Positions 3,944 to 49,880 of a DNA stretch of 57,106 nt are shown one piece after another. The stretch lies in the NCBI GenBank assembly GCA_012728955.1, contig JAAYED010000074.1, positions 1 to 57,106 on the forward strand. The letters are read 5' to 3'. The position numbers and the translations under genes are program-made. Each line of letters starts with the position of its first letter. Within the stretch, counting starts at the first letter, position 1. The notes below the pieces were generated by a model. It worked only from the letters and a program-made list of their open reading frames with translations, had not been told where the DNA came from and searched no databases. The DNA comes from Chloroflexota bacterium. Its GTDB lineage: Bacteria > Chloroflexota > Anaerolineae > UBA1429.

Positions 3944-5219
3944 GGGGGGGGAGGAGGACATGAGCGCAGAGCCGGGGCTGTGAGCCCCGGGCTCGGCGGC
4001 GGGAGAGGCCGGAGAAGTGCCGCGCCCGGGCGCGGAGCAACTCACCCGCTGGGACCGCTCCGCCCGCGGAGGCGACCCCGCAGGCGCCGGAACCTGCTCC
4101 AGAGTGTGGGCCGCTCGAGGCGTGCCGCTCGCCGGTGCGGACCGTGGCTGCCGCACCGCCGCGCCCGCCACCGCACTACCCTCCGCGTACGCACCGCCCG
4201 CGGAAGGCACCACGCAGACACAAGTCGCGGGCTTGGCGGCGTGAGGCGCCGAAGGCGATCCGTTCCATGGACCAGAGCATGAGTGCCGTAGCAACCCGCC
4301 TGCGAACGCACCGCCCGCCGATGCGCCCGAGGGTCATCTGGCAGAGTATGGCAACCCATAGTGCAGACCCACACCGCCCGAAGCCACGCCGCAGTCACAG
4401 ATGCCGGCTCGACAGCGTGAGGCGCTCGAGGCGAGGCATCCTGCGCCGCGGACCGTGACTGCGACCGCGACCCGCCCGCCAATGCACAACCCGCCACGCC
4501 CGGGCCACACCGCCCGCGGAAGGCACCACGCAGGCGCAGGAGCGGGCTCGGCGGCGTGAGCTGCTCGAGGCGTGCCCCTCGCCGGCGCGGACCATGGCGC
4601 CGCAGCGCCGCATGCGTCCACCGGACTGCCCGCCACGCCCGCACGGCCCGCGGAACGCACCCCGCAGGCGCCGGAGCCTGCTCCAGTTGTTGGGCGCCGG
4701 AAGCGTGCCGCTCGCCGGTGCGGACCGTGGCTGCCACAGCGGTCCCGCTCACCCATGCACAACCCGCCACGCCCACACCGCCGGAAGCCACCTAGCGGGC
4801 GCAGGAGCGGGCTCGGCGGCGCGAGGCGCCGGAGACGGGCCGCTCGCCGGCGCGGAGCAACCCTGCCGCTGCAGGCGCCGGAGCCTGCTCCAGAGCGTGA
4901 GACGCCGGAGGCGTGCCGGACGCCAGTGCGGACCGTGGCTGCCACAGCGACTCCGCTCGGCTCTCCCCTGCCCACGCCCCCCCGGGTCCGCTCCGCCCGC
5001 GGAACGCACCACGCAGGCACAAGTGGCGGGCTCGGCGGCGTGAGGCGCTCGAGGGGTGCCGGACGCCGAGGCGGACCGTGACTGATACAGCGCCACCCTC
5101 GGCTCTCCCCTGCCCGCGCAGGCGCACGCGCGGTCCGCGAAAGGCACCACGCAGGCACAAGTGGCGGGCTCCAGAGTGTGGGCCGCCCGAGGGGTTCCCC
5201 TCGCTCTGCGCCCCGCCGT
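3944..5219. repeat. Gene-free spacer made of diverged ~140-bp repeats
   Basis: No gene is convincing here. The element GTGCGGACCGTGGCTG and close variants begin near 4135, 4447, 4586, 4719, 4926 and 5070, so the intervals are about 140 bp or multiples. A second recurring element, GGCACCACGCAGGCACAAG followed by GGCGGGCTCGGCGGCGTGAG, occurs near 4205, 4520, 5005 and 5143. The copies are substituted and rearranged, so this is an old locally duplicated array. Confidence 0.75.
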
Positions 5220-10151: not shown

Positions 10152-11324
10152 ATGCTCTACACCACCTTTCACGATCTGCAACTCTCACGGCTGGGGATGG
10201 GCGCCATGCGCCTGCCCAACCTGGGCGAGCGGCGCGGGCCCATCGACGAGCCCGCCGCCCGTGCGGTGATCGAGGCCGCCTATGCCGGCGGCGTCAACTA
10301 TTTCGATACCGCCTATCGCTACCACGGCGGCGCCTCGGAGCCCTTTCTCGCCAGGGTGCTCAGCCAGTACCCCCGCGACAGCTACTATCTGGCCACCAAG
10401 CTGCCCGGCCACCAGATGACCTATCGCAACGGCGAGCTGGCCTTTACCGGCTATCTCTCCGGCGAGCCGGTCCAATCGCCGGCCACCATTTTTGAGGACC
10501 AGCTGGCCCGCTGCGGCGTCGAGTATTTTGACTTTTACCTGCTGCACAACGTCGCCGAGTCGTCCCTGCCGCTCTACAGCGATCCGCAGCTGGCGGTGGT
10601 GGATCTGCTGCTGGAGGAAAAGCGTCGCGGGCGCATCCGCCACCTGGGCTGTTCCTCCCACGGCCGACTGGAGACGCTGCAGCAGTTCCTCGATCGCTTT
10701 GACGGCGTGTTCGAGTTCGTCCAGCTGCAGCTGAACTATCTGGATTGGATCGTTCAGAACGCCCGGGCCCGCTACGATCTGCTGACCGCCCGGGGCATCC
10801 CCGTGTGGGTGATGGAGCCGGTGCGCGGCGGGCGGCTGGCGGCACCGGGTACCCAGGCCGAGGCGCTGCTGCGCGCCGCCCGGCCCGAGGCCTCTTACGC
10901 CAGCTGGGCCCTGCGCTGGCTCAAGACGCTGCCCAACGTGGGCGTGGTGCTCAGCGGCATGACCACCCTCGAGCAGGTGGAGGACAATCTGCGCACCATG
11001 AGCACCGTAGAGCCCTGGACCAGCGCCGACCAGGCGACCATCGACGCGGTGGTGGCCGCCATGGCCGATACGGTGCCCTGCACCGCCTGCCGCTACTGCA
11101 CCGAGCTCTGTCCACAGGAGCTGGATATCCCCCGCCTGATCGCGCTGTACAACGAGCTGGCCTTTGAGCCCCGGGCCGATCTGAGCGCCGTGCTGGCGCA
11201 GCTCGATCCGGAGGATCTGCCCAGCAACTGCATCGCCTGCCGCTCCTGTGTGTCGGCCTGCCCCCAGGGGATCGAGATCCCCGATGTGCTGGCCCGGCTC
11301 GCCGAGCGCATGGCGGCGCTCTAG
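10152..11324 (+). CDS. Aldo/keto reductase with C-terminal 2[4Fe-4S] ferredoxin domain
   Basis: A 390-residue protein. The TIM-barrel AKR domain fills about residues 1-290 with the expected tetrad region (FDTAYRYHGG supplying Asp and Tyr, LATKLPGH supplying Lys, LLHN supplying His). A ferredoxin-like module follows with two complete CxxCxxCxxxCP clusters, Cys 310/313/316/320 and 360/363/366/370. Such fusions are common in anaerobes and facultative anaerobes and are thought to couple carbonyl or sugar reduction to an electron carrier, but the reaction is not established. ATG 10152 has a GGAGG site. It is closely paralogous to 28845-30032. The flavodoxin-like gene downstream could be an electron partner. 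Confidence 0.92.
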   Translation: MLYTTFHDLQLSRLGMGAMRLPNLGERRGPIDEPAARAVIEAAYAGGVNYFDTAYRYHGGASEPFLARVLSQYPRDSYYLATKLPGHQMTYRNGELAFTGYLSGEPVQSPATIFEDQLARCGVEYFDFYLLHNVAESSLPLYSDPQLAVVDLLLEEKRRGRIRHLGCSSHGRLETLQQFLDRFDGVFEFVQLQLNYLDWIVQNARARYDLLTARGIPVWVMEPVRGGRLAAPGTQAEALLRAARPEASYASWALRWLKTLPNVGVVLSGMTTLEQVEDNLRTMSTVEPWTSADQATIDAVVAAMADTVPCTACRYCTELCPQELDIPRLIALYNELAFEPRADLSAVLAQLDPEDLPSNCIACRSCVSACPQGIEIPDVLARLAERMAAL

Positions 11325-28206: not shown

Positions 28207-28450
28207 GAGCGCCCCACTCGGGCGGGCGGAGACCCAGCGGGGCGCCCCCTCTGCTCAGCACCCGCTCTGCTCGGCGGCCGCCTTACCGAGCGCCCCACTT
28301 GGGCGGGCGGAGACCCAGCGGGGCGCCCGCTCTGTTGAGCGCCCGCTCTACTGGGCGCCCGCCTTACTGGGCGCACGCTCTACTGAGCGCCCGCCCTGCT
28401 GAGCGCCCGCCCTGCTGAGCGCCCGCTCTACTGGGCGCCCGCCTTACTGG
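28207..28450. repeat. Tandem 16-bp repeat running into the MerR 3' end, plus an 81-bp direct repeat
   Basis: Eight consecutive copies of a 16-mer (GCGCCCGCTCTACTGG and variants) fill 28323-28450. The last copy overlaps the final codons and TAA stop of the MerR gene (ends 28444). Upstream, CGCCCCACT.GGGCGGGCG followed by GAGACCCAGCGGGGCGCCC occurs near 28210 and again 81 bp later. Confidence 0.85.
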
Positions 28451-28824
28451 GCGGCGAGCTCCTGCTCGCGGGGCAGCAGGATGTCGTCATAACGGGCGAT
28501 CTTTAAATCCAGCCGGTCGAGCACGGCCTGTTGCTCGGCGATGCGCTGCGCCAGCTGCTCCCGCTGGTCCCGCAGGATGGCCAGACGTGCCTCGATGGTG
28601 CCGTCGCCCTGGCGAAAGAGAGCCACATACTGGCGCAGGGCCTCGATGGGCAGGCCCGCGCTCCGCATGCAGCGGGCAAACTCGACCCAGCGGCAATCCT
28701 CCTCGCGATAGTCCCGCAGGCCGTTCTCCCCCCGCGGCACCGGCGGGATGAGCCCGATTTTTTCATAGTAGCGCAGCGTGTCGGTGGAGAGATCGAAACG
28801 CTCGCTCACCTCGGAAATCTGCAT
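28444..28824 (-). CDS. MerR-family regulator, AdhR/NmlR-like
   Basis: A 126-residue MerR protein. The winged helix-turn-helix begins MQISEVSERFDLSTDTLRYY and continues EKIGLIPPVPR; a long dimerisation helix follows (about 80-118). It lacks the metal-binding C-terminal cysteines of CueR/ZntR. It has Cys44 and Cys52; Cys52 lies at the position of the conserved cysteine of AdhR, the carbonyl-electrophile regulator of Bacillus. It starts 20 nt after the ferredoxin-type AKR stop with AAAGGAG, so it is the second gene of the operon driven by the palindrome array at 30070-31009, which it probably binds. Confidence 0.9.
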   Translation of the reverse strand: MQISEVSERFDLSTDTLRYYEKIGLIPPVPRGENGLRDYREEDCRWVEFARCMRSAGLPIEALRQYVALFRQGDGTIEARLAILRDQREQLAQRIAEQQAVLDRLDLKIARYDDILLPREQELAAQ

Positions 28825-28844: not shown

Positions 28845-30032
28845 TCAGCGCGGCCGGGCGGCGCGAAAGGCGGTGATCCGTTCATCCAGCTCGGCCAGCA
28901 CCCGGGGCACCTCGATCATTTGCGGGCAGACCTGCATGCAGGCCTCGCAGGCGATACAGTTGGCGGGCATGTCCGCCTCCCCCAGGGCCTGCAGCGCAAA
29001 GAACACGCTGGCCGTGGGCTCAAAGGACAGCTCGTTATACAGCGCGATGAGCGCCGGGATATCCAGCTCCTGCGGACAGGTTTCGCAGCAGTAGCGACAG
29101 GCGGTGCAGGGAACGAGATTCACCAGGCTGTCGGTGACCTGCTGCAGCACCTGGCGATCGCCAGCGCTGAGGGGCTGGGGCGCGTCAAAGAGCTGCAGGT
29201 TCTCCTCCAGCTGGGCCAGCGTGCTCATGCCGCTCAACACCACCGCCACCTGCGGCAGGTCCTGCACAAAGCGCAGGGCCCAGGAGGCAAAGGATGCCTC
29301 CGGCCGGGCCGCCCGGAGCAGCTCGGCGGCCTGGGGCGCCGGATTGGCCAGATAGCCGCCGCGCACCGGCTCCATCACCAGCACGGGCAGGCCCCGCTCC
29401 GCCAGCAGGGCGTACTTGGCCGCCGCATCCTGCAGCGTCCAGTCCAGATAGTTGAGCTGCAGCTGCACAAACTCAAAGGTATCGGGGCGCCAGTCCAAAA
29501 AGCGCGCGATGGTCTCGGTGCGGCCATGGGACGAAAAGCCCAGATGGCGGATGCGCCCCGCCGCCCGCTGCTCCTCCAGGTAGGCCACCACGCCGAAATC
29601 GGCGTCGGTATAGGTATCATAAGAGGACTCGCACAGATTGTGCAGCAGGTAATAGTCGAAATAATCGACCCCGCAGCGGGCCAGCTGGTCCTCAAAGATG
29701 GTGGCCGGGCTGGAGACATCCAGCCCGCTGAGATAGCCCTGCATCTCTACGCGACCGTTGCGGATCTGCATCATGTGGCCGGGAAACTTGGTGGCCAGAT
29801 GCCACTGGGCCCGCGGATACTCGTTCAGCACCTGGCCCAGCAGCAGCTCTGAGGCGCCATTGTGGTAGCGATAGGCGGTATCAAAATAGGTGATGCCCCC
29901 TTCCAGGGCGCGGCGGATCAGGGCACGGGCGGCGGGCTCGTCGATGGGGCCCCCCTGCCCGAGGGTGGGCAGGCGCATGGCGCCCAGGCCCAGGCGAGAG
30001 ACGGTGCAGCTGCCCAGCGTACGGTACTCCAT
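28845..30032 (-). CDS. Aldo/keto reductase with C-terminal 2[4Fe-4S] ferredoxin domain (second copy)
   Basis: A 395-residue AKR, about two-thirds identical by eye to the 10152-11324 product. FDTAYRYHNGASE, LATKFPGHM and YYLLHNL carry the tetrad. The ferredoxin module has two complete clusters, Cys 309/312/315/319 and 359/362/365/369. ATG 30032 has AGGAG and lies just downstream of a MerR-type promoter. The adjacent electrophile-type MerR gene suggests a role in removing reactive carbonyls, or a response to them; the substrate is not known. Confidence 0.92.
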   Translation of the reverse strand: MEYRTLGSCTVSRLGLGAMRLPTLGQGGPIDEPAARALIRRALEGGITYFDTAYRYHNGASELLLGQVLNEYPRAQWHLATKFPGHMMQIRNGRVEMQGYLSGLDVSSPATIFEDQLARCGVDYFDYYLLHNLCESSYDTYTDADFGVVAYLEEQRAAGRIRHLGFSSHGRTETIARFLDWRPDTFEFVQLQLNYLDWTLQDAAAKYALLAERGLPVLVMEPVRGGYLANPAPQAAELLRAARPEASFASWALRFVQDLPQVAVVLSGMSTLAQLEENLQLFDAPQPLSAGDRQVLQQVTDSLVNLVPCTACRYCCETCPQELDIPALIALYNELSFEPTASVFFALQALGEADMPANCIACEACMQVCPQMIEVPRVLAELDERITAFRAARPR

Positions 30033-30063
30033 GTCTGACTCCTGTGGATCGTGATGATACCAG

Positions 30064-30094
30064 CATAACACCTGGAGTGCACTCCAGGTCAAGT
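30064..30094 (-). promoter_or_regulatory. MerR-type promoter of the AKR-MerR operon
   Basis: On the minus strand TTGACC (30086-30091 region) is followed by a 19-bp spacer and TATGCT (about 30061-30066). The palindrome ACCTGGAGTGCACTCCAGGT (30070-30089, perfect) fills the spacer. Over-long 19-bp spacers with a dyad inside are the defining mark of MerR-activated promoters. It is the gene-proximal unit of the array. Confidence 0.85.
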
Positions 30095-31009
30095 GGCGGA
30101 AAAGGACCGTGGGCGGAAGTCGATTGTGGGCGGAAACTGTCCGGCCAGGCCCTCCGCGGGCTCGGCCGCCAAGCGCCCCGCCACCCACTCTGCCCCTGTG
30201 CTGACACCTGGAGTGCACTCCAGGTCAAATCGCGGAAAAGGACCGCTCGCGGAAATCGAGCGTGGGCGGAAGCCCTCCGGCCACGGCCCCGCGGGCTCCA
30301 CTGCGACCCACCATTCTATCCTAACACCTGGAGTGCACCCCAGGTCAGATCGCGGAAAAGGACCGCTGGCGGAAAACGACCTTGGGCGGAAACCGTCCGG
30401 CCACGCCCTCCGCGAACTCGCCCGCCAGGCACCCCGCCACCCAGCCTGCCCCTATGCTAACACCTGGAGTGCACTCCAAGTCAAATCGCGGAAAAGGACC
30501 GCTCGCGGAAATCGAGCGTGGGCGGAAGCCCTCCGGCCACGCCATCCGCGATCTCCACTGTGGGCCGCAATTCTATCCTAACACCTGGAGTACACTCCAA
30601 GTCAAGTGGCGGAAAAGGACCGCTGGCGGAAATGAGCGTGGGCGGAAGCCGTCCCGGCCACCCCACCGCGGGCTCGGCCGCCGAGCGCCCCACCGCCCAG
30701 CCTGCCCCCATGCTAACACCTGGAGTGCGCTCCAGGTCAAATGGCGGAAAAGGACCGCTGGCGGAAAGCGAGCGTGGGCAGAAGCCGTCCCGGCCACCCC
30801 ACCGCGGGCTCGCCCGCCGAGCGCCCCGCCGCCCAGCCTGCCCCCATGCTGACACCTGGAGTCGGCTCCAGGTCAGATCGCGGAAAAGGACCGCTGGCGG
30901 AAGACGAGCGTAGACGGAAACCGTCCGGCCACGCCATCCGCGAACTCGCCCGCCGAGCGCCCCACCGCCCAGCCTGCCCCCATGCTAACACCTGGAGTGG
31001 GCTCCAGGC
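30070..31009 (-). repeat. Array of eight MerR operator/promoter units of 120-136 bp
   Basis: The palindrome ACCTGGAGTGCACTCCAGGT or a variant with one to three changes starts at 30070, 30206, 30326, 30462, 30593, 30718, 30854 and 30990 (intervals 136, 120, 136, 131, 125, 136, 136). On the minus strand each copy carries TTGACC, TTGACT, CTGACC or TTGGCC on one side and, 19 bp away, TATGCT, TAGCAT, TAGGAT, CAGCAT or CAGCAC on the other. The rest of each unit is shared too (GCGGAAAAGGACCG, GGCGGAA, GCCCAGCCTGCCCC). No gene is present in the array. Confidence 0.92.
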
Positions 31010-31083
31010 CAAATCGCTCACGATCGCCGTTCTGTCCGCCGCGCGGCCCCGCGGGCGGCACCATCACAGCCGAGCGCAAACCC

Positions 31084-31111
31084 TTTACCCGCGCAAGGGA
31101 CGTGGTATACT
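31084..31111 (+). promoter_or_regulatory. Promoter candidate of the Gfo/Idh/MocA gene
   Basis: TTTACC (31084-31089), 16-bp spacer, TATACT (31106-31111); the -10 is strong, the -35 moderate. It lies 36 nt before the start codon. Confidence 0.5.
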
Positions 31112-31146: not shown

Positions 31147-32373
31147 ATGTCAGAAGAGATCTTTCGTCTGGGATTGGTGGGAGCGGGCATCATCGCGCGC
31201 ACGCACATCCGCGCCATGGGTCTGCTCAAGGAGCGGGGCCTGGGGGGCTTTGAGGTAGTGGCCATCTGCGACATGAACGCCGAGGCGGCCGCCGAGGCCG
31301 TGGCCCTGGCGCAGGAGCTGCTGGGCCAGACCCCCAAGGTGTACGCCGATTATCGCGCCATGCTGGACAACGAAGAGCTGGATGGCGCCGATCTGTGCCT
31401 GCCGCACGGGCTGCATCACACTGCGGCCATCGACTGCATGGAGGCGGGCGTCAACGTGCTGTGCGAAAAGCCGCTGGGCATCACCATCAAGGCCAGCCGC
31501 ATGATGGCCGAGGCCGCCGATCGCACCGGCGCGGTGTTCTCCCTGGCCGTGCCCCAGCGCCGGCTGCCCGGCATGCGCATGGTACGCTGGGCGCTCAACG
31601 ACTCGGGGCTGCTGGGCAAGCCCCTGACCTTTTTCCACACCATGGCCCGCGCCGGCGCCCGCCGCGATCCCAACGCGCCGGTGCCCTATGCCAGCCGCTG
31701 GCGCGCCGATCGCCTGATGTCGGGAGGCGGCCCCGCCATGGACGGCGGCTTTCACTGGTGCGATGGCATGCGCTTTTTGATCGGTGAGGTGGATACGGTC
31801 TATGCCCGGGCCATCGAGATCGGTGGCGGCCAGGTGCAGAACGTGCCCGAGGTGCGCGAGGATACGCTGCACGCCGTGCTCACCTTCAAGAACGGCATCA
31901 CCGGCACCTGGGCCTGGTCCTTTGACGCCCCGGGGGAGGGCTTTCAGAAGGTGCTCTTTTACGGTACCGAGGGCTCGCTGAGCACCGAAACCCGGCACGC
32001 CATTTTCCACCTGTACTGGCGCCAGGGCGAGATGATCGAGGAAGGCCTGCTGACCCAGCGCGAGGGCAAGCAGTTCACCTTTGACGAGCTGCACGGCCTG
32101 TACAAGGCGGCCACCCCGCCGGAGCAGTACGAGTTCCTCTTCCCGGCCGGCGTGCAGAACGGCTTTGCCTATGAGATCTGGGAGTTCATGGAGGTGGTGC
32201 GCGGCAACCGCGAGCGGGTGGAGGTGGATGCCTGGGACGGTATCAAGTCGCTGGCGGTGTGCGAGGCGATCTATGAATCGGCCACCTCGGGGATGCCCGT
32301 CAAGGTGGAGGACGTGCTCTCGGGCAAGGTAGAGGCCTACCAGGCCCCGATCAACGCCCACTGGAACATCTAG
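31147..32373 (+). CDS. Gfo/Idh/MocA family oxidoreductase
   Basis: A 408-residue NAD(P)-dependent oxidoreductase. The N-terminal Rossmann motif is LVGAGIIARTH (10-20), and the EKP motif with the catalytic Lys is at residues 107-109 (CEKPLG). The C-terminal GFO/IDH/MocA domain includes DGGFHWCDGMRFL, supplying the second conserved Asp/His region. It probably oxidises or reduces a sugar or inositol derivative. ATG 31147 follows GAGGAGG. Single-gene transcript. Confidence 0.92.
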   Translation: MSEEIFRLGLVGAGIIARTHIRAMGLLKERGLGGFEVVAICDMNAEAAAEAVALAQELLGQTPKVYADYRAMLDNEELDGADLCLPHGLHHTAAIDCMEAGVNVLCEKPLGITIKASRMMAEAADRTGAVFSLAVPQRRLPGMRMVRWALNDSGLLGKPLTFFHTMARAGARRDPNAPVPYASRWRADRLMSGGGPAMDGGFHWCDGMRFLIGEVDTVYARAIEIGGGQVQNVPEVREDTLHAVLTFKNGITGTWAWSFDAPGEGFQKVLFYGTEGSLSTETRHAIFHLYWRQGEMIEEGLLTQREGKQFTFDELHGLYKAATPPEQYEFLFPAGVQNGFAYEIWEFMEVVRGNRERVEVDAWDGIKSLAVCEAIYESATSGMPVKVEDVLSGKVEAYQAPINAHWNI

Positions 32374-32430: not shown

Positions 32431-32476
32431 AACCCCTCGTCGCCACGGCGCGTCGCGCCCCTGCGGCGAGGGGTTT
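32431..32476 (+). terminator. Possible terminator after the Gfo/Idh/MocA gene
   Basis: AACCCCTCG (32431-32439) can pair with CGAGGGGTT (32467-32475), followed by a T run (GGGGTTTTG). A smaller hairpin, CCCCTGCGGCGAGGGG, sits directly before the T run. The second half recurs near 32767-32800, so part of this is also repeat sequence. Confidence 0.5.
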
Positions 32477-32880
32477 TGCGAGCCAGACCCCGTGCCCGCC
32501 CGCGGCGACGCCCCCTGCCCCGTGCAGCGCAGCGCCCGCAGCCGGTGTCGCATCGGCGGGCGGGAGGGGCTCCGGCGGCGCGCACTCCGCAGCCTCCGCC
32601 CCGCTCCCGGCGCGACTCCCTGCCCCGTGCAATGCAGCGCCCGCGCCCGGTGTCCCATCGGCGGGGCGGACGGCCTCCGGCGAGGCGCACTCCGCAGCCT
32701 CCGCCCCGCTCCCGGCGACACACCCTGCCCCGTGCAGCGCAGCGCCCGCGCCCGGTGTCCCATCGGCGGGCGTCGCGCCCCTGCGGCGAGGGGTTTTGTG
32801 AGCCAGGCCCCGTGCCGGCCCGCGGCGACGCCCCCTGCCCCGTGCAGCGCAGCGCCCGCGCCCTGTATCGCAGGGGCGGG
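32453..32880. repeat. Tandem ~105-bp repeats
   Basis: TGCCCCGTGCAGCGCAGCGC (with small changes) starts near 32516, 32621, 32726 and 32836. Between copies the units share CCGGTGTC.CATCGGCGGG and CGCACTCCGCAGCCTCCGCC. A longer block, GTCGCGCCCCTGCGGCGAGG to GCGGCGACGCCCCC, occurs at about 32453 and 32767. No gene. Confidence 0.8.
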
Positions 32881-32901
32881 CGTGGCGGTCCCCGGCGAGG
32901 T

Positions 32902-37610: not shown

Positions 37611-38340
37611 CCGCAGGGCGCCAGCGGTGGCCCGTCGCCGATGCGGTGGACGGGGGGTGGCAGGGGCCGCCACGGCCCCGTGGGCGGCCTGGATGCGAGG
37701 CTCGGCGGAGGGCAGTCGCCTGCAGAGAGCGCTCCCGTCGGCCAGTGGAACCAGCCACGCTGCCACGGGGGGCGCCCGGCGGTGGCCCGTCCCCGAGACG
37801 GAGAACCGGGGGCGGCCTGGATGCGAGGCTCGGCGGAGGGCAATCACCTCCAGAGAGCGCTCCCGTCGGCCAGTGGAAACAGCCACGCTACCGCGGGGCC
37901 GGCAGTCGCAGCTGCCACGCAGGGCGCCAGGCGGTGGCCCGTCCCCGAGGCGGAGGATGGGCTTCTGGAGGGTAGGAGGTTTGCTGTGTTCCATAGGGGC
38001 GCCAGGCGGTGGCCCCGTCCCCGAGGCGGAGGATGGGGGGTGGCAGGGGCCGCCGCGGCCCTGCGGGCGGCCTGGATGGGAGGCTCGCCGGAGGGCACTC
38101 GCCTCCTGAGAGCGCTCGCATCGGCCAGTGGAAACAGCCACGCTACCGCGCAGGGCGCCCGGCGGTGGCCCGTCCCCGATGCGGGGGACGGGGGGGGTGG
38201 CAGGGGCCGCCACGGCCCTGCGGGCGGCCTGGATGCGAGGCTCGGCGGAGGGCACTCGCCTCCAGAGAGCGCTCCCGTTAGCCTGTGGCACCAGCCGCAC
38301 TGCCACGGGGGGCGCCAGCGGCAGCCTCCCGTGAGGATCC
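37611..38340. repeat. Tandem ~155-bp repeats
   Basis: CGGTGGCCCGTC or a close variant starts at 37625, 37780, 37932, 38007 and 38161. Full units also share GCGGCCTGGATGCGAGGCTC, GGCGGAGGGCA and CAGAGAGCGCTCCCGTCGGC followed by CAGTGGAA.CAGCCACGCT. The 37932 unit is truncated to 75 bp. No gene is convincing. Confidence 0.8.
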
Positions 38341-45019: not shown

Positions 45020-45903
45020 GCCCGGCGGGTACCGAGGGCCTGGCGACCGATCCTGTCGCAGTACCCCTCACGCTGCAGGCCAGGCAACGGCCGGGATGGG
45101 GCGGAAAGGGCCCCTGTGGCGCCAACGGTGCGTCCAACGGCCGCCCGGGGCGCCAGAACCTGTCGCCACGGCGGCGCGGCCGCACGGAGCGGCGCAGAAG
45201 AGGTGACCTGCGGGCGCTGAGGCGCGGCGCAGACGCTGAACGGTGCCCGAGCGGGCGTCCTCGGAGAGGGGCCTGAGGGCGTGCCGCAGCGCCAGCGGCA
45301 CTGCCGGCCGGCACAAGCGTGCGGCGCCACTCAGCCCACGGCGTTACGGAGTGGCGAGCTGGCGCGGCGCGGAAGAGGTGACCTGCGGGGGCTGAGGCGC
45401 GGCGCAGACCCCGAACGGTGCCCGAGCGGGCGTCCTCGGAGAGGGGCCTGAGGGCGCGCCGCAGCGCCAGCGGCACTGTCGGGTGGCACAGGCGTGCGGT
45501 GCCAGTCAGCCGACGATGGCAGCCCGCGGCGCCCCAGCGCAGGCAAGTGGTTGCGCTGGCTTCCGAAGCTCAGTGCAGTGCCCGGCGGGCAATGTCCGGA
45601 CCGCAGCGATGTCCGAGGGCGCGAGGCAATCGTTGGCCCGTGCGGGCAAGTCCGGTCCGCAGGGCTGCCCGAGTGCGCCAGGCACCGTTTGAGCAAGCGA
45701 GCGCGGCGGCCTGCATGTACATGTGAGGGGCGCGCCCCGGAGGCAGCGAGCCGGCATCACCCGGAGCGTGGCATCCGCTGGTGACGGGAACCCAGTGCAG
45801 TGCCGGCGGGGCGGAGCCTGTCCTCAGGGTCAGCGCCAGTCGCCGGGAGCGCCCCAGCCGCCGCGCCCGGCCGGAGCAGCCTTGCGCAGGCAAAGGAGTT
45901 GTC
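45020..45903. repeat. Spacer with a ~131-bp direct repeat
   Basis: The block AGAGGTGACCTGCGGG.GCTG through GCCGCAGCGCCAGCGGCACT occurs at about 45198-45329 and 45374-45504 (offset 176), differing at roughly one base in fifteen. Gene-free. A further GC-rich stretch to 45903 shows no clear promoter for the PAP2 gene. Confidence 0.8.
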
Positions 45904-49388: not shown

Positions 49389-49880
49389 AGGAACCTCCTT
49401 TCAGGGGACGGGCCCGGCCCCGCTGGCGGCAGTCCAGCACAGCGCCGGGGCGGGCCGAAATCGGTAACGCCTGTGCGTGGCACGGGCGAACAGAGACGCC
49501 TGTCAGGAATACGCACAGAATGGCGGACGGTTGCGCCGGCCGCGTTGCCCAAGCCGCTCAGCGGCGGCTCGGAGGGGCCCGCCGAAACGACCGTGGCGCC
49601 GGCGAAGCGACAAGTGCTCACAACCGGTTGCGCCGCGGGCGTAGCGCCCACCGCTCAGCGGCGGCTTCGGAGGGGCCCGCCGAAACGGCGGCGGTACCGA
49701 CGGACTGACAAGCGCTCGCAACCAGTTGCGCCGCCGTCGTTGCGCCCTGCCTCTCCGCGGCAGCTCGTGGGGGGCTCGCAGCAATGGGTGCGGCGCCGGC
49801 AACGCGACGGGCGCTCGCAACCAGTTGCGCCGCGGGCGTAGCGCCCACCGCTCAGCGGCGATTCGCTGCTCCTTAGCCCG
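49389..49880. repeat. Tandem ~98-bp repeats
   Basis: GTTGCGCC starts units at 49530, 49627, 49725 and 49824 (intervals 97-99). Units share CCGCTCAGCGGCGGCT.GGAG followed by GGGCCCGCCGAAACG, and GCGACAAG.GCTC.CAACC. The third unit is the most diverged. No gene. Confidence 0.85.

Follow-up and report, generated by a model that had tools for sequence, protein, structure and literature searches.

Eight tandem MerR-type operators upstream of an aldo/keto reductase-MerR operon in a Chloroflexota bacterium

The window analysed here is a stretch of 57,106 nucleotides from a Chloroflexota bacterium. It carries an operon whose first gene encodes an aldo/keto reductase (AKR), and the operon also encodes a MerR-type regulator (Table 1). 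The AKR reading frame and its reductase domain are intact, and the ATG at 30032 is preceded by AGGAG at 30043-30039. The best NCBIfam model for the regulator is NF041849 (NmlR; E 9.4e-42) with 141.8 bits, which is below the curated 175, and HI_0186 is among its closest solved chains. A preliminary description, made from the letters alone, had pointed out Cys52 of this protein; indeed, the residue is invariant in the window MerR and in 80 of 80 homologues. AdhR and NmlR are both MerR-family electrophile sensors with Cys52/Cys54. For AdhR of Bacillus subtilis, Cys52 is required for the response to formaldehyde (PMC4776306). An eight-copy array of a 16-bp unit (GCGCCCGCTCTACTGA) is located between a second AKR gene and the 3' end of the MerR gene (window 28321-28453) and overlaps the MerR stop region.

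Table 1. Coordinates of the operator array, its single copies and the adjoining features in the window (scores are given by the profile of natural sites described in the text)
Feature	Position	Strand	Description
AKR, first operon gene, C-terminal 4Fe-4S domain	28845..30032 (incl. stop)	-	PF00248 6e-36, PF13187 6.5e-8
NmlR/AdhR-like MerR regulator, 126 aa, Cys52	28444..28824	-	PF00376; presumed operator binder
Whole array	30066..31017	.	eight 32-bp cores (TAAC..dyad..ATCGC) and seven linkers of 88-104 bp
u1, native promoter-operator nearest AKR	30062..30092	-	TTGACC-19-TATGCT around perfect dyad 30070-30089; score 41.6, 42nd percentile
u2	30198..30228	-	perfect dyad 30206-30225 (26.1); TTGACC; dead -10 CAGCAC (-11.4)
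u3	30318..30348	-	dyad 30326-30345 with one mismatch, 18.4 (below 5th percentile of 20.7); -35 CTGACC 2.0; -10 TAGGAT 6.1
u4	30454..30484	-	TTGACT; strong dyad 30462-30481 (29.8); weak -10 TAGCAT (2.5); total 40.0, 29th percentile
u5	30575..30605	-	TTGACT; dyad 30583-30602; -10 TAGGAT; total 41.5, 42nd percentile
u6	30710..30740	-	TTGACC; dyad 30718-30737; weak -10 TAGCAT (2.5); total 33.7, 7th percentile
u7	30846..30876	-	dyad 30854-30873 (24.1); -35 CTGACC and -10 CAGCAT, both poor; total 20.4, 1st percentile
u8, outermost	30982..31012	-	weak dyad 30990-31009 (18.5); -35 TTGGCC; -10 TAGCAT; total 28.7, 4th percentile
Separate dyad-free promoter-like site of divergent Gfo/Idh/MocA gene 31147-32373	31084..31111	+	TTTACC-16-TATACT; consensus match only

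Upstream of the AKR-MerR operon, eight 20-bp dyads of the form ACCTGGAGTGCACTCCAGGT follow each other in one orientation on the minus strand, with dyad-to-dyad spacings of 136, 120, 136, 121, 135, 136 and 136 bp. In all eight copies, a -35-like and a -10-like hexamer enclose a 19-bp spacer and are directed to the AKR gene. Both the palindromes recurring at 120-136 bp and the hexamers facing the AKR had been described from the letters, and the coordinates bear them out for every copy. The array, which is also called by Tandem Repeats Finder, has a core-linker-core layout: a common core of 32 bp (TAACACCTGG...AAATCGC) is present in eight copies and the linker in seven, with linkers 2 and 4 sharing a deletion of 15-16 bp. 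The outer flanks are unrelated, and the DNA upstream of u8 is not repeated. Over full units, the copies are 74-93% identical; the right half-site ACTCCAGGT is unbroken in eight of eight copies, despite a divergence of up to 26% between whole units. A search of the 2.64-Mb assembly with up to two mismatches found the dyad pattern only in the eight array copies, and outside the array the genome contains no true further locus of the unit DNA, a weak match in contig C104 being located within coding sequence.

Several other readings of the pattern were considered and rejected. An assembly artefact was rejected because, over the full unit, 7-26% of positions differ between most copies, which are thus not one repeated read, and an interspersed repeat because the unit is found nowhere else. 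A protein-coding repeat is contradicted by units of 136, 120 and 121 bp, which are not all multiples of three, and by overlapping open reading frames in many frames. The spacings of 120/121 and 135/136 bp keep no single phase, which argues against constant helical phasing of the sites. Candidate terminators within the units gave weak hits in u2, u4 and u6; however, only u2 and u4 have a 6-pair stem, and the run contains only four T's. With a GC content of 70%, the contig differs from the sampled contigs of at least 3 kb (60-68%), but its tetranucleotide profile is close to that of other contigs of the bin (r 0.99 for C5 and 0.98 for C140). Thus, the contig was not regarded as foreign and is taken as native, with a residual chance of a binning error.

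The link between palindrome and regulator was drawn from related loci. The operator of the MerR relatives reads TTGAC(C/T)TGGAGTnnACTCCA(A/G)G and lies between the -35 and a -10 spaced by 19 bp. The survey comprised 84 loci encoding MerR homologues, of which 80 came from scanned genome contigs, three from plasmid records and one from a genome belonging to the same family. In 68 of them, sites of the TTGACTTGGAGTnnACTCCAAG type with up to three mismatches are present, 95 in total; the reversed pattern used as a control gave 2. In around 25 loci, the site is located directly upstream of an AKR gene, usually followed by the MerR gene. In the same-family genome G004, one site (TTGACTTGGAGTTGACTCCAGGTATTACAGT) precedes a cupin-flavodoxin-MerR operon, the last gene of which encodes a MerR protein with 64% identity. 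The gene of this 64%-identical protein (L040 3633-4001) is interrupted by an in-frame TGA close to its beginning, and may therefore be a pseudogene or reflect a sequencing error; its operator is intact. On the grounds of comparative genomics, the palindrome is the operator of the operon's own MerR, and the earlier assignment of a MerR-type operator in a 19-bp spacer to the NmlR/AdhR-like regulator stands.

MerR-family switches are textbook one-site devices, and eight sites had been considered abnormal for MerR control. The survey of relatives agrees: among 103 loci, at most one operator per 400 bp is present in 79, two are found in six and three, the maximum, in one, and none was detected in 17. 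Matches with up to one mismatch occur in 17 of 396 genomes of the class, and clustered sites only in the window. No same-strand pair of sites at the spacing of the array was detected in 400 genomes of the phylum outside the window. Across the genomes compared, the eight-site copy number is exceptional. Another member of the class carries two full NmlR-type promoters one after the other, at a distance of 85 bp and directly before a MerR gene (L179 1502-1617). This tandem is the closest natural analogue of the array and possibly represents a two-site ancestral state.

Each copy was scored with a profile built from 109 natural sites of relatives, covering the -35, the dyad and the -10; the 5th percentile of the natural sites is 20.7 for the dyad and 2.9 for the -10. 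Six dyads score within the natural range and two are weak. u1 and u5 are normal throughout, u5 being the only distal copy with a normal -35, dyad and -10. The copies u4 and u6 are borderline, as dyad and -35 are good and the -10 is just below the natural 5th percentile. The remaining four, u2, u3, u7 and u8, have a damaged -35 or -10. If transcription starts around 7 bp past the -10, the leader from u1 to the ATG at 30032 would be approximately 23 nt long. The native -10 TATGCT is present in u1 only. The repeated core begins with TAAC on the plus strand and thus holds only the TA of the minus-strand -10, so that the distal hexamers consist of this TA and the GCAT, GGAT or GCAC of the linker end, giving TAGCAT, TAGGAT or CAGCAC. 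The distal copies lack the native -10 because the boundary of the repeat falls inside this hexamer. The description of eight complete copies therefore had to be abandoned: eight operators are accompanied by two to four plausible promoters, as judged from their profile scores. An AKR paralogue with 61% identity, followed by a flavodoxin-like gene, is encoded elsewhere in the window (10152-11324, +); its dyad-free promoter-like site TTGACC-16-TATGCT has the hexamers of u1 without the MerR operator.

The copies could also act as stacked promoters, with u1, u5, u4 and u6 each firing toward the AKR gene and thereby increasing the output or producing a long structured leader. All copies share one direction and the 19-bp spacer, the scores of u1, u4, u5 and u6 are within the range of natural promoters, and L179 shows that two full promoters can stand in tandem before a MerR gene. 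However, the distal -10s are made at the repeat junctions and are mostly weak, and constraint on the -10s is not apparent (P 0.38). Moreover, engineered tandem promoters in Escherichia coli can attenuate each other by collisions instead of adding up (PMC11339919). The folded units have no match in Rfam and are mostly no more structured than shuffles (z-scores of 0 to -1.4), except for that of u4 (30454-30574, -2.8), and a riboswitch or another known RNA was rejected on the same data. Stacked promoters are hence regarded as improbable.

Do the distal dyads show signs of being maintained? Changes among the dyads fall on positions that are tolerated in natural sites, with a profile loss of 13.4 compared to 33.2 expected (P 0.0057), and the same bias is seen when dyad and -35 are taken together (P 0.0086). 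In the profile test, changes in the -10 show no such bias (P 0.38), in line with the earlier impression that distal copies keep the dyad better than the -10. The dyad arms are variable in 3 of 17 columns, the linker in 37 of 77 (P 0.019). As had also been suspected, conservation extends beyond the dyad: the block GCGGAAAAGGACCG just upstream of the -35 is near-invariant in seven copies and, in a post hoc comparison, varies in only one of 15 columns, which makes it at least as conserved as the dyad. Homogenisation or another element may thus account for some of the conservation. A 20-column window on the dyad ranks 16th of 117 in conservation. The modest constraint on the dyad favours retained binding, but it is suggestive rather than proof because only about eight events are involved, the GCGGAAAAGGACCG block varies even less, and the dyad window ranks no higher. 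A near-invariant GCGGAAAAGGACCGCtgGCGGAA block, unique to the array, was observed beside each -35, at window 30096-30118 and at six equivalent places.

The conserved block raises the question of whether the array belongs to a different class of element, such as an iteron, partition or second-regulator array, of which the GCGGAAA direct repeats would be the functional part. GCGGAA-like direct copies do occur three times per unit with a period of around 17 bp, next to the near-invariant GCGGAAAAGGACCG. On the other hand, this block is absent from the rest of the genome, the neighbouring genes that were scanned for protein families encode oxidoreductases and MerR, not replication or partition proteins, and the dyads fit the operator class of the adjoining regulator. 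Such an element is very improbable.

The operator array is an intergenic head-to-tail (VNTR-like) array in a genome that contains others. Seven tandem arrays with a period of at least 60 are present in the 57-kb window, all of them intergenic; the six others have periods of 98-175, and the operator array is the longest and has the most copies. In sampled stretches of the same genome, five arrays were found in 181 kb, four of which are located in one 17-kb contig; a genome of the same genus has none in 110 kb and G004 has one in 132 kb, all densities being slightly understated since contigs below approximately 3 kb were read as N and yet counted in bases. Tandem duplication is general in the window contig and in contig C140 (L137). 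An array with a 105-bp unit is located downstream of the Gfo/Idh gene (window 32495-32898), where an intrinsic-terminator-like sequence (cgcccctgcggcgaggggtttt) is found near 32455 and again near 32775. Further intergenic arrays with units of 98-175 bp are present at window 4447-5195, 37997-38318, 45189-45515 and 49530-49860. By these counts, tandem duplication is a local habit of this genome region, and the presence of an array alone does not indicate a function.

The main rival to a titration role therefore is that the array is a neutral by-product, i.e., one of many intergenic duplications, with u1 as the only relevant copy and the rest as decaying passengers. The six neighbouring arrays and the four in a single 17-kb contig would be expected from it, as would the copied terminator in another array of the window, the broken -35 or -10 in four of eight copies and a non-operator block that is as conserved as the dyad. 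It accounts less well for the bias of dyad changes towards tolerated positions (P ~0.006), for a right half-site that is unbroken in every copy and for the rank of this array as the longest and most-copied one of its period class in the window. We consider neutrality possible but doubtful.

The preferred reading is that of a normal NmlR-type promoter combined with tandem-duplicated, bindable operators, which most likely act as decoys for the regulator; our confidence in it is evenly poised. It builds on the anatomy of the array, the pairing of regulator and operator across genomes, the outlying copy number and the better-kept dyads, from which we infer binding at the distal copies, titration and unequal recombination between operators. 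u1 is an ordinary MerR-type promoter, at which, by analogy with the MerR family, a regulator dimer would bind the dyad in the over-long 19-bp spacer and repress in the resting state. Upon sensing of an electrophile by Cys52, MerR would twist the DNA, thereby activating u1. The seven upstream copies would have arisen by tandem duplication of the operator and its linker, probably through unequal recombination between operators in a two-site ancestor, as suggested by the core-linker-core layout and the unrelated outer flanks. The duplication would have carried along the operator and usually the -35 without the native -10, so that most distal copies are putative binding sites without a good promoter. 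Since the distal copies probably still bind, and most lack a good -10, the likely effect is titration: binding of the same MerR to the distal sites would reduce the free regulator, so that the self-regulated operon responds at another threshold and with another steepness. u5 and, more weakly, u4 and u6 are possible upstream starts, the transcripts of which would have to pass regulator-bound copies. Against titration, no other MerR target that it would affect is known in this genome, of which the finer profile scan covered ~0.25 Mb; the assembly consists of 317 contigs and is 89% complete.

A rather unlikely variant is that the array was naturally selected, with the seven extra promoter-poor sites forming a built-in sponge that determines at which threshold and how sharply the operon responds to electrophiles. 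As a natural eight-site MerR switch in which operators were kept and promoters let go, the locus would be a ready test of regulator buffering by operator arrays. If the array is neutral, it would be a clear case of intergenic tandem duplication that multiplies regulatory elements but not working promoters.

The AdhR regulon of B. subtilis and NmlR regulons resemble the locus in their MerR-family regulator with an invariant Cys52, the operator in the promoter spacer and oxidoreductase targets (PMC4776306). However, in the homologous loci of our survey, a promoter has a single operator and rarely two or three, compared to eight in tandem in the window. BldC of Streptomyces is also a DNA-binding protein of the MerR type that has several sites within a control region; it lacks the coiled-coil dimerisation domain and forms cooperative multimers on direct repeats (PMC5859096). 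In contrast, the window MerR is of the classical type, and instead of contiguous short direct repeats, the array has separate 20-bp dyads 120-136 bp apart. The clbR VNTR of E. coli is likewise a tandem array before a regulated gene, in this case with an 8-bp unit repeated 2-20 times ahead of a regulator gene, and 20 instead of 5 repeats changed reporter output around twofold (PMC7364221). An effect of array length on expression thus has a precedent, although the clbR unit is much shorter and part of the untranslated leader, whereas the window unit holds a full operator. Repeated promoters or sites for one regulator are also known from synthetic circuits with tandem promoters or with decoy and titration sites (PMC11339919, PMC7505660); these circuits are engineered, whereas the array in the window is natural.
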